A stretch of 64,000 nt of DNA from contig NZ_NFJR01000004.1 in NCBI RefSeq assembly GCF_002159975.1, positions 186,001 through 250,000 of the forward strand, given 5' to 3'. The DNA comes from Barnesiella sp. An22 (GTDB lineage: Bacteria > Bacteroidota > Bacteroidia > Bacteroidales > Barnesiellaceae). The notes below the pieces were generated by a model, which searched no databases, was not told where the DNA came from, and worked only from the letters and a program-made list of their open reading frames with translations. A program made the translations under genes and the position numbers. Below are positions 1,064 through 6,823 of this stretch, in pieces (positions within the stretch are counted from its first letter, which is position 1; the number at the start of each line of letters is the position of its first letter).

Positions 1064-1094
1064 TTTGCATTTTGTTTTTAAAGCGCTATATTTG
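1064..1094 (+). promoter_or_regulatory. Promoter of the his operon leader
   Basis: A Bacteroidota -7 box TATATTTG at 1087-1094 with TTTG at 1064-1067, 19 bp upstream. Transcription would begin about 1100, placing the leader peptide at 1117 close to the 5' end. Confidence 0.75.
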
Positions 1095-1116
1095 TCGTGA
1101 ATTATAATTGAGCATT

Positions 1117-1179
1117 ATGTTGTTTCTATCGTTGCATCATCACCATCATTTGCATATTCCTCGCAGAGGGGTACGGTGA
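1117..1179 (+). CDS. his operon leader peptide (20 aa, 6 His)
   Basis: ATG at 1117 opens a 20-codon frame ending with TGA at 1177-1179. Residues 7-11 are five consecutive His and residue 13 is also His (codons 1135-1149 and 1153-1155). It lies between a Bacteroidota promoter and a terminator-like hairpin just before hisG, the arrangement of histidine operon attenuators. The product itself is presumably unimportant; ribosome position during its translation is the signal. It is too short for standard gene callers. Six His in 20 codons directly upstream of his genes is unlikely by chance, so confidence is high although no experiment is available. Confidence 0.88.
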   Translation: MLFLSLHHHHHLHIPRRGVR

Positions 1180-1250
1180 GTCGTGCATGTAGAAATGGCA
1201 TGGAGAATATTTATATAGGCTTACCGTAGTTGCGGTAAGCCTTTTTTCTT
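1172..1250 (+). terminator. his attenuator: terminator hairpin with competing antiterminator
   Basis: The terminator stem is GGCTTACCG (1218-1226) with CGGTAAGCC (1233-1241), a six-base loop and a T-rich tail from 1242. The upstream strand TACGGTGAGTC (1172-1182) can pair over 11 positions, including two G-U pairs, with 1218-1228, which would destroy the terminator. The leader stop codon (1177-1179) lies inside this upstream strand, so a ribosome that finishes the leader covers it and allows termination. A ribosome stalled on the His codons at 1135-1155 leaves it free. The pairing is read from sequence; the mechanism is inferred. Confidence 0.83.
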
Positions 1251-1268
1251 TTAAAAAAGAGTTGAAGC

Positions 1269-2120
1269 ATGTTGCGAATTGCCATTCAGTCGAAGGGGCG
1301 CCTCTATGAAGAGTCGATGGCCCTGTTGGAAGAGGCCGGCATCAAGTTGCCGGGCGGAAAGCGAACCCTGTTGGTCTCGGCGCGGAACTTCCCGGTCGAG
1401 GTGTTGTTTTTGCGAGACGACGATATACCCGAGTCGGTCGCCTCGGGGGTAGCCGATGTAGGTATCGTGGGTTTGAACGAGGTGTTGGAGAAACGCTGTC
1501 CCGTAGGGGTGCTCAAGAAGTTGGGCTTTGGACGATGCCGCCTTTCGCTGGCTATCCCGCAGGACGTGGACTACCCGGGCCTCGGTTGGTTTTCGGGGCG
1601 CAAGATAGCCACCTCGTATCCCGGTATCCTCTCCGATTTTCTGCACCGCAACGGCATCGAGGCCGATATTCACGTGATAGCCGGGTCGGTCGAGATTGCC
1701 CCCGGCATTCGCCTGGCCGATGCTATTTTCGATATAGTGAGCTCGGGCAGTACGCTGGTGAGCAACCGGCTGAAGGAGGTAGAGCAGGTGGTCGAGTCGG
1801 AGGCGGTGCTTATCGGTACCGATTCGCTGTCGGACGAAAAACAGGAGATTCTCGACGAGCTCCTCTTCCGTTTCGAGTCGGTGCAGGCGGCCGATGGCAA
1901 GAAGTATATCCTGATGAATGTGCCGCAAACGCGGCTGGCCGACGTGCTTGCCGTGTTGCCGGGCATCAAGAGCCCCACGGTCATGCCTTTGGCCGATCCG
2001 GCTTGGTGCTCGGTGCATACGGTACTCGACGAGAAGCGCTTTTGGGAGATAATCAACCGTTTGAAGGGCGCCGGTGCCGAAGGTATCGTGGTGCTCGATA
2101 TTGAAAAGATGATTTTGTAG
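1269..2120 (+). CDS. hisG: ATP phosphoribosyltransferase, long form
   Basis: First enzyme of histidine synthesis: condenses ATP with PRPP to give phosphoribosyl-ATP. The N-terminus MLRIAIQSKGRL and the segment VADVGIVGLNEV are typical of HisG, and ISSGSTL-like residues appear as DIVSSGSTLVSN in the phosphoribosyl-binding region. At 283 residues it is the long form, with a C-terminal regulatory domain (about 210-283), so feedback inhibition by histidine is expected and no separate HisZ is needed. ATG at 1269 follows the attenuator directly. hisD begins one base after its stop, indicating a single operon. Confidence 0.95.
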   Translation: MLRIAIQSKGRLYEESMALLEEAGIKLPGGKRTLLVSARNFPVEVLFLRDDDIPESVASGVADVGIVGLNEVLEKRCPVGVLKKLGFGRCRLSLAIPQDVDYPGLGWFSGRKIATSYPGILSDFLHRNGIEADIHVIAGSVEIAPGIRLADAIFDIVSSGSTLVSNRLKEVEQVVESEAVLIGTDSLSDEKQEILDELLFRFESVQAADGKKYILMNVPQTRLADVLAVLPGIKSPTVMPLADPAWCSVHTVLDEKRFWEIINRLKGAGAEGIVVLDIEKMIL

Positions 2121-2121
2121 T

Positions 2122-3438
2122 ATGGCAGTAAAGATATATGACAACCCGCCCCGCGAGCAGTGGGCGGAGATTGTGGCCCGGCCGAAGATTGACCTGGCCG
2201 ACTTGTCGCGTACCGTGGCCGAGGTGTTGGAGGCGGTGCGGGTCGAAGGCGACGAAGCGTTGCGGCGTTACGAGCGCCGGTTCGACGGGGTGGAGTTAGC
2301 CGGTTTTCAGGTAACTCCCGATGAAATCGAGGCGGCGTCGGCCGCCGTGTCGCCCGAGTTGAAAGCGGCCATCGGGCAGGCTATCGACAACATTACGAAG
2401 TTTCACGCCTCGCAGGCCGTGGCCGTGCACAAGGTCGAGACTACACCCGGGGTATGGTGCTGGCAGAAGGCCGAAGGCATCGAACGGGTGGGCATCTATG
2501 TGCCGGGGGGTACGGCGCCCCTCTTCTCGACGGTGCTGATGCTGGCCATTCCCGCCCGGTTGGCCGGTTGCCGCGAGGTGGTGATGTGTACGCCGCCGGG
2601 ACGCGATGGACGCGTTGCCCCGGCTATCCTCTATGCCGCTCGTGCTACGGGGGTAGACCGCATTTTCAAACTGGGGGGTGTGCAGGCCATCGGGGCCCTG
2701 GCTTTCGGTACGGCCAGCGTGCCTGCGGTGAGCAAGATTTTCGGGCCGGGCAACCGCTATGTGATGGCGGCCAAGCAACAGGTGCAGATGCAAGGCGTGG
2801 CTATCGACATGCCGGCCGGACCGTCGGAGGTGATGGTGGTGGCCGATGCCGGGGCCGACCTCCGTTTCGTGGCGGCCGATTTTCTGTCGCAGGCCGAGCA
2901 CGGGGCCGACAGCCAGTCGGTACTGGTGACGTCGTGTCGCGACCTGGCCGACCGTTTGCCGGACGAAATCGAGCGCCAGGCTTCCCGGCTTCCCCGGTAC
3001 GAATGGATAGCCAAGTCGCTTGCCCACAGCTCGATTGTGTTGCTCGACGACGACCGGGAGCAGCTCGACCTGGTCAATGCCTATGCCCCCGAGCACCTGA
3101 TTGTGCACCGGGCCGATGCCGAGGCGTGGGCCGCGGGTGTGGTCAATACCGGCTCGGTATTTCTGGGCTATTACTCTCCCGAGAGTGCGGGCGATTACGC
3201 CTCGGGTACCAACCACACGCTGCCCACGAGCGGATATGCCCGGGCTTACAGCGGGGTCAATCTCGACAGCTTCACCCGCAAGATAACCTTTCAACACATC
3301 TCGCCCGAGGGGCTGAAGAATCTCGGCCCCGTCATCGAGACCATGGCTGCCGCCGAAGAGCTGGAGGCTCACCGTCGGGCGGTGACCATACGTTTGCAAA
3401 ACCTGAATAAAGCGAATGACCATGACAACCTCGAGTAA
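2122..3438 (+). CDS. hisD: Histidinol dehydrogenase
   Basis: Carries out the last two steps of the pathway, oxidising L-histidinol to L-histidine with two NAD. The 438-residue length is normal. The zinc and catalytic regions are visible as QAEHGADSQ (about residues 257-265) and PEHLIVH (about 322-328), with the family signature region GVQAIGALAFGT and KIFGPGNRYV in the middle. It starts one base after the hisG stop and its 3' end overlaps hisC by 23 bases, so translation of the three genes is likely linked. No unusual features. Confidence 0.96.
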   Translation: MAVKIYDNPPREQWAEIVARPKIDLADLSRTVAEVLEAVRVEGDEALRRYERRFDGVELAGFQVTPDEIEAASAAVSPELKAAIGQAIDNITKFHASQAVAVHKVETTPGVWCWQKAEGIERVGIYVPGGTAPLFSTVLMLAIPARLAGCREVVMCTPPGRDGRVAPAILYAARATGVDRIFKLGGVQAIGALAFGTASVPAVSKIFGPGNRYVMAAKQQVQMQGVAIDMPAGPSEVMVVADAGADLRFVAADFLSQAEHGADSQSVLVTSCRDLADRLPDEIERQASRLPRYEWIAKSLAHSSIVLLDDDREQLDLVNAYAPEHLIVHRADAEAWAAGVVNTGSVFLGYYSPESAGDYASGTNHTLPTSGYARAYSGVNLDSFTRKITFQHISPEGLKNLGPVIETMAAAEELEAHRRAVTIRLQNLNKANDHDNLE

Positions 3439-4483
3439 ATCCATAGAGCAGTGGGTGCGCCCCAACATCCGTCGGTTGCAGCCCTACTCGTCGGCCCGAA
3501 ACGAATTTTCGGGCGAGGCTTCGGTGTGGCTCGATGCCAACGAAAGCCCTTTCAACACTCCCTACAACCGCTATCCCGACCCCTTGCAGTGGGCCGTGAA
3601 GCAGCGCCTGGCCCGGCAACGCGGCGTAACGCCTCAGCAGATTTTCCTCGGGGTGGGGAGCGACGAGGCCATCGACCTGCTCTACCGCATCTTCTGCACG
3701 CCGGGCAGGCACAATGCCTTGTCGATAGCTCCCACCTACGGCATGTATCGGGTGTGTGCCGACATTAACGACGTGGCCTATCGCGAAGTGCCCTTGAATG
3801 CCGATTTTTCGCTCCCGGTCGAGGCCCTTCTGGCTGCGGCCGATGCCGACAGCCGGCTGCTCTTCGTCTGTTCGCCCAACAACCCCACGGGCAATGCCTT
3901 CCCCGAAGAGGAGATTGAAAGGCTCCTGACCGGTTTCGAGGGTATCGTGGTGGTCGACGAGGCGTATATCGACTTCTCGTCGCGCCCTTCGTGGCTCGGC
4001 CGGTTGGCCGAGTTTCCCAATCTGGTGGTGCTGCAAACCCTCTCGAAGGCGTGGGGCAGTGCCGGGGTGCGGTTGGGCATGGCCTTTGCCGCGCCGGCGA
4101 TTATCGACTATTTCAACCGGGTGAAGTATCCCTACAACATCAGCGCGCCGGTGCAGCGCTATGCCCTCGACATGCTCGACCGGGCCGACGAGGTGAGCCG
4201 CTGGGTGGCCGATACGCTGGCGGTGCGCGACCGCTTTGTCGGGCGGTTGGCCGAGTTGCCTCTGGTGCAGCGGGTCTATCCCAGCGATGCCAACTTTGTG
4301 CTGGTGCGGGTCGACGAGGCCACGGCCGTGTACCGTTGGCTGCTCGACGAGGGCATCGTGGTGCGCAACCGCTCGTCGGTGCGATTGTGCGACGATTGTC
4401 TGCGCATCACCATCGGCACGGCCGACGAGATGAATTTGTTGTTTCAGGCACTAAGCCGTTATCCTAAAAGAATGAGTCTATGA
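3416..4483 (+). CDS. hisC: Histidinol-phosphate aminotransferase
   Basis: PLP-dependent class I/II aminotransferase that converts imidazole-acetol phosphate to histidinol phosphate. The PLP lysine lies in [14 protein letters not shown] near residue 210; SPNNPTGN (about 152-159) and VVDEAYIDF (about 180-188) are the other fold landmarks. The 355-residue length fits HisC. The start overlaps the end of hisD; a second ATG two codons in (3422) is equally possible. Its stop overlaps the hisB start as ATGA at 4480-4483, indicating translational coupling. Confidence 0.95.
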
Positions 4484-5607
4484 AACGAGTGCTTTTTATC
4501 GATCGCGACGGCACGCTGGTAGTCGAGCCGCCTGTCGACTTTCAAATCGATTCGCTGGAGAAGCTGGAGTTCTGTCCCCGGGTGTTCCAGAGCCTGGCCT
4601 ATGTGGCGGCCCGTCTTGATTTCGAGTGGGTGATGGTGACCAATCAGGACGGTATGGGTACCCCTTCGTTCCCGGCCGAGACCTTCTGGCCGGCGCAGCA
4701 GAAAATCGTGCAGGCCCTGGCCAACGAGGGTATCCGTTTCGACCGGATCTGTATCGACACCTCGCTGCCCGAGGAGAACCGCCCCACCCGCAAACCGGGC
4801 ACGGCCATGCTCACCCGCTATACCACGGGCGAATATGACCTGGCCCACTCCTACGTCATTGGCGACCGTCTGACCGATGTGCAACTGGCGGCCAACCTGG
4901 GTTGCCGGGCCATCTATTACGCTCCGTCCGAACGGGGCGTGGCCGAGGTCGAGGCAGCCGGTCTGGCCGGGGTGTGCGAGGCGGTGACCGACGACTGGTG
5001 GCAGGTGGCTCAAGTGGTGTGTGCCGCTACCCGACGGGTGTCGCTCGAACGCCGTACGGCCGAGACCGAGGTGCGGGTCGAGCTCAACCTCGACGGGACG
5101 GGCCGCACCGATATTCACACCGGCCTCGGATTCTTCGACCACATGCTCGACCAGTTGGGTCGCCATGCCGGGGTCGACCTCACGGTACACACCCGGGGCG
5201 ATTTGCAGGTCGACGAGCACCACACCATCGAAGATACGGCCATCGTGCTGGGCGACGCCTTTGCCCGGGCGTTGGGCGACAAGCGGGGGATTGCCCGCTA
5301 TGGTTTTTCGCTGCCCATGGACGACGCCTTGTGCCGCGTGGCCCTCGACCTGGGCGGGCGTCCGTGGCTGGTGTGGAAGGCCGATTTCCATCGCGAGAAG
5401 ATAGGCGACATGCCCACCGAGATGTTCCTCCACTTTTTCAAATCGTTCAGCGATGCCGCCCGCATGAATCTGCACATCGAGGCCGAGGGGGTGAACGAGC
5501 ATCACAAGATCGAAGGCATCTTCAAGGCCTTTGCCCGGGCATTGAAGATGGCCATCCGGCGAGACCCCACCGACGACCGGCTGCCCTCGACCAAGGGCAT
5601 GCTGTGA
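4480..5607 (+). CDS. hisB: Bifunctional histidinol-phosphatase / imidazoleglycerol-phosphate dehydratase
   Basis: Fusion of two histidine pathway activities. Residues about 1-165 are a HAD phosphatase with the nucleophile motif FIDRDGTLV and a later KPGTAM and [10 protein letters not shown]. Residues about 180-375 are the dehydratase, with the metal-binding motifs [24 protein letters not shown] and [13 protein letters not shown]. The fused form is known in enteric bacteria and is common in Bacteroidota. It is the last his gene here; hisH, hisA, hisF and hisIE are not in the window and must lie elsewhere. Confidence 0.96.
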
Positions 5608-5769: not shown

Positions 5770-6255
5770 ATGAGAAAGAATTGGATTTGGGCTTTGTCCC
5801 TTTTGTTGATTGGCGGTATGGCTTCGTGTAAGTCGAGCCAAAGCGCCTATCGGGCTGCCTATGAAAAGGCCCAGGAGAAGAAAATCGAAGAGGCTGCACC
5901 CGCACCGGCCGAGACCGTGGTAACGACTCCCTCGACAACCACTACGACTACTCCCTCTTATTCCGCACCCGTGCGCGAGCAGAGCGAGCGCATCAGCGCC
6001 GTCGACGGCAACGATGCTCTGCTCAAAGAGTACAATGTAATCGTGGGCAGTTTCCGTCAACGTCTCAATGCACAGAGCCTTTGCGAGCGTCTGCGCGCAG
6101 ATGGTTATCCCGCTGTGTTGGCACAGAATGCCGCCGGTTGGTATCGTGTGGTAGCTTGCTCGTTCGACAATCGTCCGGCAGCCGTTCAGGCTCGTGAGGC
6201 TTTGCAGGCTCGCTATCCGCAGTTTACCGATGCCTGGTTCCTGATTAACAAGTAA
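5770..6255 (+). CDS. SPOR domain lipoprotein
   Basis: Small envelope protein expected to bind denuded peptidoglycan glycan strands at the division site. The N-terminus is a lipoprotein signal with lipobox GGMASC (Cys about residue 20). A low-complexity linker rich in Ala, Pro and Thr (about 40-70) leads to the C-terminal SPOR domain (about 90-161: YNVIVGSFRQRLNAQ, then GWYRVVACSF). The 161-residue length fits a simple lipid-anchored SPOR protein. It is a single gene with its own promoter, followed by the repeat block. The exact physiological role is not visible from sequence. Confidence 0.9.
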   Translation: MRKNWIWALSLLLIGGMASCKSSQSAYRAAYEKAQEKKIEEAAPAPAETVVTTPSTTTTTTPSYSAPVREQSERISAVDGNDALLKEYNVIVGSFRQRLNAQSLCERLRADGYPAVLAQNAAGWYRVVACSFDNRPAAVQAREALQARYPQFTDAWFLINK

Positions 6256-6337: not shown

Positions 6338-6823
6338 TGTCACCCCACACAACGATGCGGGGTCCAGTGAGGGGAAGGCGTTGTAAACTGTTGCGGGTGC
6401 TCCTGCCCGGGTATTCCTGGATACCGCGTCGTAGCGCGGTATGACGTACGTGTCACCCCGCACAACGATGCGGGGTCCAGTGAAGGGGAAGGCGTTGTAA
6501 ACTGTTGCGGGTACTCCTGCCCGGGTATTTCTGGATACCGCGTCGTGGCGCGGTATGACGTGAGCGTGTCACCCCGCACACCGATGCGGGGTCCAGTGAG
6601 GGGGAAAAAGCGTTGTAAACTGTTGCGGGTACTCCTGCCCGGGTCTTTCTGGATACCGCGTCGTAGCGCGGTATGACGTACATGTCACCCCGCACAACGA
6701 TGCGGGGTCCAGTGAGGGGAAGGCGTTGTAAACTGTTGCGGGTACTCCTGCTCGGGTATTTTCTGGATACCGCGTCGTAGCGCGGTATGATTGCCTCTTC
6801 GTGTCGTGGCGCGGAATGACGTG
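6338..6823. repeat. Tandem palindromic repeat block, four units of about 115 bp
   Basis: Units begin at 6339, 6452, 6568 and 6684 (periods 113, 116, 116). Each holds module A, CACCCCGCA / TGCGGGGT, a spacer with GTTGTAAACTGTTGCGGG, and module B, GGATACCGCG / CGCGGTATGACG. A partial fifth module B ends about 6822. The block fills the space between the convergent SPOR gene and gtrA. Open frames read leftward through it are by-products of the repeats. Related copies are at 19101, 21081 and 28421. Confidence 0.92.

Follow-up and report, generated by a model that had tools for sequence, protein, structure and literature searches.

The control of histidine synthesis in Bacteroidota has barely been described, and the gap upstream of hisG in Barnesiella sp. 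An22 raises the question of whether it encodes a switch that responds to histidine. The gap lies in a stretch of 64,000 nucleotides (contig NZ_NFJR01000004.1, positions 186,001 to 250,000; the window), downstream of a permease-like gene (22-1002), and contains a promoter, a leader ORF and a terminator. A first-pass annotation had proposed a histidine attenuator operated by direct ribosome cover of the antiterminator strand. We conclude that the locus is very probably a ribosome-mediated (leader-peptide) transcription attenuator of hisGDCB, with a layout like that of E. coli trp; the core of the earlier proposal was right, its anatomy was incomplete (a third helix had been missed) and its novelty was overstated. 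If correct, this reading offers a testable His-responsive switch in common gut bacteria and implies transcription-translation coupling in them.

Leader, terminator and antiterminator upstream of hisG

The features of the locus are collected in Table 1. hisG is presumably the first gene of a hisGDCB operon, and its product is 94% identical to HisG of Candidatus Barnesiella excrementavium. The promoter was called by its fit to TAnnTTTG, which we take to be the Bacteroidota-type consensus. The coordinates given in the first-pass annotation for a 20-codon leader with five consecutive His codons and a sixth check out in the window sequence.

Table 1. Coordinates of the regulatory features and genes of the his locus in the window.
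Feature	Coordinates	Strand	Details
Bacteroidota-type promoter	1064..1094	+	TTTG 1064-1067, 19-nt spacer, TATATTTG 1087-1094 fitting TAnnTTTG
Protector helix 5' strands (region 1)	1115..1144	+	1115-1129, 1133-1137, 1140-1144; predicted folds
Leader ORF	1117..1179	+	ATG at 1117, stop TGA 1177-1179, peptide MLFLSLHHHHHLHIPRRGVR, 20 codons
Regulatory His codons	1135..1155	+	five in a row (1135-1149), one Leu, sixth His 1153-1155
Antiterminator strand (region 2)	1172..1182	+	TACGGTGAGTC, contains the leader stop codon
Protector helix 3' strands	1175..1203	+	1175-1179, 1183-1187, 1189-1203; predicted folds
Terminator 5' arm (region 3)	1217..1228	+	pairs with 1172-1182 or with the 3' arm
Terminator 3' arm and T run	1232..1247	+	region 4 = 1232-1242
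hisG	1269..2120	+	ATG at 1269; NCBIfam TIGR00070 hisG, 187 bits
hisD	2122-3438	+	NCBIfam match over cut-off
hisC	3416-4483	+	NCBIfam match over cut-off
hisB, bifunctional	4480-5607	+	NCBIfam match over cut-off

The terminator hairpin (1217-1242), with a predicted folding energy of -17.7 kcal/mol, is followed by a T run; the stem described earlier (1218-1241) was right to within one base pair. The strand 1172-1182 (TACGGTGAGTC) can pair with 1218-1228 (GGCTTACCGTA) over 11 bp, two G-U pairs included, at -15.2 kcal/mol, and the leader TGA (1177-1179) does fall within this 11-nt strand, as had been claimed. For pairing between the stop region and the terminator arm, p was 0.005, the lowest value that 200 base shuffles allow, and the 205-nt region folds better than its dinucleotide shuffles (z -2.98, equalled by 2 of 200). 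The locus has a leader ORF with codons for the product of the operon and an intrinsic terminator before the first gene, both of which are features of an attenuator.

Conservation across Bacteroidota

Upstream regions of hisG were scored for a leader (at least three His in nine residues) and a terminator (-10 kcal/mol or better). Both were present in 91 of 109 Bacteroidales regions taken from the higher-scoring hisG matches, the remaining 18 lacking the combination, and in 71 of the 78 records from named genomes, whose titles almost all name Bacteroidales, a set that shares some species with the former. Regions from other orders of the class had leader and terminator in 31 of 40 cases (leader in 39), and those from other classes of the phylum in 10 of 20 (leader in 13). 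The same test gave no positives among 545 base-shuffled upstream regions and 421 window slices of 600 nt. All region sets favour higher-scoring hisG matches. A hisG match was present in 144 of 295 Bacteroidales genomes and in none of the other 151; the best-scoring 110 of these 144 regions were used (L001-L110), with two near contig ends skipped and the 32 lowest-scoring left out. One of these 110 loci and two of 80 named loci were too short and were dropped from the count. The phylum search gave a hisG match in 171 of 198 genomes, from which 40 of 44 same-class and 20 same-phylum regions were taken, the latter all among the higher-scoring matches. In assembling a 140-locus set, a hisG start was found in 179 of 190 loci, a leader in 157 (looser rules, with GTG and TTG starts allowed) and a terminator in 155, from which 3 with an unsuitable terminator (strength or distance) and 12 exact duplicates were removed. 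For the statistical tests, 63 representatives with less than 70% identity were drawn from 203 loci with leader and terminator. In 39 of these 63, the 60 nt that precede the leader ATG include a TAnnTTTG motif, versus 2.6 expected from shuffles.

The relatives carry His-rich leaders at the same place upstream of hisG, and their peptides have little in common outside the His run; the leader of Phocaeicola vulgatus ATCC 8482, for example, is MVRTATHHHHFPNE. In many members of the class other than Bacteroidales, the C-terminal leader codons track the terminator: they read CTCARGCGAG (e.g. S-Q-A-R or S-Q-A-M), and the terminators contain CCCGTTTGAG. Two His-leader and terminator modules stand in series before hisG in 10 of the 203 loci (L060, L061, L064, L067, L071, L073, L080, L083, L091 and L110), an arrangement that might steepen the response. 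One congener (L004) has only three His codons, broken up as HRYHLH, with terminator and antiterminator kept; its decayed His run possibly marks a weakened switch.

The antiterminator is specific across loci

Among the 63 representatives, a locus's own antiterminator pairing averaged -9.73 kcal/mol, versus -7.78 kcal/mol with swapped partners (z -7.4, 0 of 5000 permutations), the control placed after the terminator giving z -1.4. Against dinucleotide shuffles, which take base composition out of the comparison, the antiterminator gave a Stouffer value of -10.6 and the control +0.4; locus by locus, p <= 0.05 was reached in only 19 of 63. When a 12-nt window was slid along the leader, the own-minus-swapped difference was -0.40 to -1.06 kcal/mol for starts -15 to 0 from the end of the stop codon, with the minimum of -1.06 kcal/mol at -12 nt, and +0.31 to -0.46 elsewhere. 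As judged from the sequences, antiterminator specificity is thus strongest at the leader stop codon.

Covariation was assessed in a MAFFT alignment of 61 loci, restricted to those with a GGCTTRCC-like terminator arm, a choice that favours the conserved core. The 11 pairs were paired in 84.4% of cells; shifting the helix by 1 to 3 columns lowered this to 28.7-45.1%. The terminator was paired in 99.3%. For the antiterminator, 39 cells were changed on both sides; shuffles gave 21.3, and none of 500 reached the observed count. Double changes occurred at four pairs of this alignment, which is no better than in shuffles (199 of 500), because the core is nearly invariant and the alignment was chosen by the terminator motif. 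The first-pass annotation had named relatives without the His codons or the pairing as evidence that would speak against it; most of the related regions keep His codons and terminator, and the pairing is kept as a set, so that the proposal passed this check.

Near the stop, only 37 of the 63 representatives have an antiterminator duplex that reaches -8 kcal/mol, and it is in these that the mutual exclusion of antiterminator and terminator, a further feature of attenuators, is clear singly. The textbook region II of E. coli trp was missed by the automatic search, which can therefore overlook true cases; this insensitivity may be part of the reason for the 26 representatives without a clear duplex. 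Lineage-specific terminators with matching strands include GGCTTACC with GGTGAGC and CCGGCTTCC with GGAAGC, and further matches of terminator and antiterminator are CCCGTTTGAG with CTCAAGCGAG, CCTACCTG with CAGGTAG and CCCCGGCG with CGCCGG. Bacteroidales with a GGTTTGCAG-type terminator (L058, L059, L065, L070, L071, L076-L078 and L095) retain the His leader, and the search at their stop yielded no clear antiterminator strand; some have a very strong protector helix (L070).

Region 2 and the leader stop codon

The stretch from the last His codon to the terminator offers a duplex of -9 kcal/mol or better in 177 of the 203 loci. The strand of this duplex contains part of the stop codon in 74, precedes it in 44 and follows it in 59. 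The footprint of a ribosome at the stop codon was assumed to extend from 18 nt before the end of that codon to 12 nt past it. The strand overlaps this footprint by at least 4 nt in 167 of the 177 loci, and overlaps it in 36 of the 37 representatives with a clear duplex; both counts are partly forced, the search for the antiterminator having been limited to the vicinity of the last His codon or the sequence downstream of it. The unforced evidence for placement at the stop codon is the sliding-window profile described above. The placement in the window is one instance of a broader rule, namely that region 2 is where the finishing ribosome stands. If our reading is right, the set, with stop codon, region 2 and terminator varying together over about 200 loci (203, some of the same species), is suited to tests of attenuation theory.

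A predicted protector helix competes with the antiterminator

The free leader is predicted to form mainly a long hairpin between its 5' half, start codon included, and the strand at and after the stop, with 1115-1129 pairing with 1189-1203, 1133-1137 with 1183-1187 and 1140-1144 with 1175-1179. The last of these strands overlaps both the antiterminator strand and the stop codon, and five of the 11 antiterminator bases in the window are common to the two structures. We take this predicted helix as the classical 1:2 protector, which cannot coexist with the antiterminator; it completes a 1:2 / 2:3 / 3:4 attenuator like that of E. coli trp. In the comparison of own with swapped strands over the 63 representatives it gave z -10.8 (0 of 5000), and z -4.0 (0 of 5000) when only the part before the His run was used; the corresponding Stouffer values against dinucleotide shuffles were -13.6 and -5.7, with p <= 0.05 locus by locus in 24 of 63. 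Of the 37 representatives with a clear antiterminator, 30 have at least four bases for which it competes with the protector. In all 37, part of the protector 5' strand would be hidden by a ribosome on the His codons, a result nearly forced by the stretch chosen.

Leaders of other amino-acid operons in the same genome

The genome of the window also has a leuA leader, MTISLLNNLIIIIDLLSNSPDEK, and a pheA leader, MKNFDFAYYFYFYFYFRQNKNGVLCN. Both have a terminator, and in both an antiterminator strand lies at the stop. The Leu/Ile-rich leader of leuA (G000:C1, about 304187-304370; L257:888-1071) has its TGA inside a GTGAGAA strand that matches the terminator arm CCTTTCTCAC. This stop-inside-strand layout recurs in six of seven congeners scanned, the strand of the seventh (L287) beginning just after the stop. 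Upstream of pheA (G000:C1, about 502620-502780; L195:1330-1490) the leader is rich in Phe and Tyr; its antiterminator strand is encoded by the last codons (N-G-V-L) here and in two congeners, and in the others lies just after an earlier stop. Fifteen loci of each kind were scanned in relatives, the window's genome included, leaving out further leuA-like matches and one pheA fragment. Leader and terminator were present in 14 pheA and 12 leuA loci, the leuA case L281 being doubtful; one locus of each kind gave no usable reading, and two leuA loci had no leader and terminator.

It is a tentative idea, which we hold to be possible rather than probable, that Bacteroidota have one attenuator design for his, leu and phe, with the stop codon locked onto the antiterminator strand. 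If so, this may be the form of his attenuator that is ancestral in the phylum. The genome has another his cluster (G000:C1), with hisA identified by TIGR00007 and its neighbours taken by eye as hisH and hisF; the 390 nt scanned upstream of it contain no short His-rich ORF. thrA was located in the genome. Searches of the genome gave no match to the N-terminal domain of trpE (PF04715) or to the Bacteroid-trp family RF01692, for which reason tryptophan synthesis is possibly absent, unless the gene falls in an assembly gap.

Proposed mechanism and alternative explanations

At the level of sequence, the comparisons establish the leader and three competing predicted helices, show that these elements are conserved as a set and place region 2 at the stop codon. 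With ample charged His-tRNA, the leading ribosome would reach the TGA and cover region 2, so that region 3 could pair only with region 4 and transcription would end near 1247. With the ribosome released or absent, region 2 would be partly held by the protector, and the terminator would still form. A shortage of His-tRNA would stall the ribosome on the His codons, where it would cover the protector 5' strand and free region 2; the 2:3 antiterminator would form before region 4 is made, and RNA polymerase would continue into hisG. We infer that stalling, transcription-translation coupling and termination take place in this way in cells.

Constrained folds of the window RNA were computed with an assumed start at 1104, an assumed footprint and the RNA upstream of the ribosome kept unpaired. 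For RNA transcribed as far as 1228, with a ribosome placed on the fourth His codon, the minimum was the antiterminator. In the full leader the terminator formed with the ribosome at the stop or with none, and it was still the minimum with the ribosome at any of the six His codons. The switch must therefore be kinetic, with the antiterminator winning by forming first, as it does in other attenuators.

A simpler switch would dispense with the protector helix, only the ribosome at the stop blocking the antiterminator strand. Such a device would account for the overlap of that strand with the stop footprint (36 of 37 representatives, 167 of 177 loci), counts that are both partly forced, but it would not predict a 1:2 helix specific over the 63 representatives (z -10.8, and z -4.0 without the His run) whose 3' strand shares 4 nt or more with the antiterminator strand in 30 of 37; we regard it as unlikely. 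The first-pass proposal is thus supported in part. The strand would indeed be covered by a ribosome at the stop and freed by one stalled on the His codons, yet the idea that cover is the whole switch finds no support: a competing helix is predicted to take up part of the antiterminator strand without any ribosome, and over the representatives it is as specific as the antiterminator.

The wide conservation of the leader ORF might instead reflect a functional small His-rich peptide, for example a metal-binding one, beside an incidental terminator. The peptides share little outside the His run, however, their C-terminal codons track the terminator in many non-Bacteroidales, and the same genome has leuA (Leu/Ile-rich) and pheA (Phe/Tyr-rich) leaders of the same layout, all of which makes this explanation hard to credit. 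Control of hisG by a T-box, a riboswitch or a protein-dependent terminator would likewise fit a sequence that looks to contain a conditional terminator, but an 8-kb scan placed no Rfam family over the leader at E <= 1, and the codon runs match the product of each operon; we consider it most improbable. No Rfam T-box match was obtained in the window scans or in 20 loci (19 hisG regions and the leuA upstream region), and at gathering scores only a tRNA was found in those 20. The best match in a 301-base scan was the His_leader family (RF00514; 24.7 bits, E 0.04), below its gathering score of 49, and this family was not listed at E <= 1 in the 8-kb scan. RF01692 had no match in the window scans.

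Comparison with known attenuators

In E. coli trp, region II begins just after the leader stop. The printed trp sequence fits this position, the duplex search returning another duplex there. In the window, by contrast, region 2 contains the stop, and in the relatives the stop may be within region 2 or on either side of it. In the available text on E. coli trp (trpL), the likeness is a leader with regulatory codons, a I:II protector, a II:III antiterminator and a III:IV terminator, and the ribosome at the stop keeps region II unpaired until its release (PMC1183508). The codons differ, being Trp there and His here. The view that direct ribosome cover is special to Bacteroidota finds no support, cover of region 2 being classical.

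The E. coli and Salmonella his leader (hisL; RF00514) shares with the window a His-codon leader and an intrinsic terminator before hisG. It differs in an extra hairpin between the pause hairpin and the terminator, held to keep basal read-through low according to the accessible part of the same source (PMC1183508). By our duplex search, the strand that pairs with the terminator arm of E. coli his starts about 31 nt past the leader stop. The Bacteroidota layout is that of E. coli trp rather than that of E. coli his.

No his attenuator is described for Bacteroidales in the available portions of the open-access literature. A 2010 study by Lopatovskaya et al., cited in PMC4833913, reportedly treats attenuation across bacteria and may contain an earlier prediction for Bacteroidota. 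Bacteroid-trp (RF01692) is, as listed in Table 1 of its source, a probable cis-regulatory RNA of Bacteroidetes (PMC2864571). In Flavobacterium psychrophilum, a structured hisG 5' element was reported in 2021, present also in other genera of Flavobacteriaceae and without an Rfam hit, together with strong clues for leader-peptide attenuation upstream of amino-acid operons; in contrast to the present analysis, the accessible part of that paper gives no switch anatomy, covariation or presence in Bacteroidales (PMC9723704). Small ORFs of B. thetaiotaomicron are, in the text available, called reminiscent of leader peptides (PMC7366714), and his attenuators are also predicted for some Firmicutes (PMC9413887). 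A 2021 survey of his genes in the superphylum describes, in its available part, attenuation for Salmonella and E. coli and none for Bacteroidota (PMC8305728). The mechanism is not new, ribosome cover of region 2 being classical and the 2021 flavobacterial paper already hinting at it; what is new is its breadth, its anatomy and the parallel leu and phe versions, a textbook principle met here across a phylum where it has hardly been described.

Tandem repeats in the window

Between a gene at 5770-6255 with weak FtsN-like matches and the next gene, positions 6338-6790 of the window hold a unit of about 114 bp in four tandem copies. Matches of these repeats to microRNA families were sub-threshold and look like chance. 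Each copy contains the palindrome-like sequence GATACCGCGTCGTAGCGCGGTATGA or a near copy of it.
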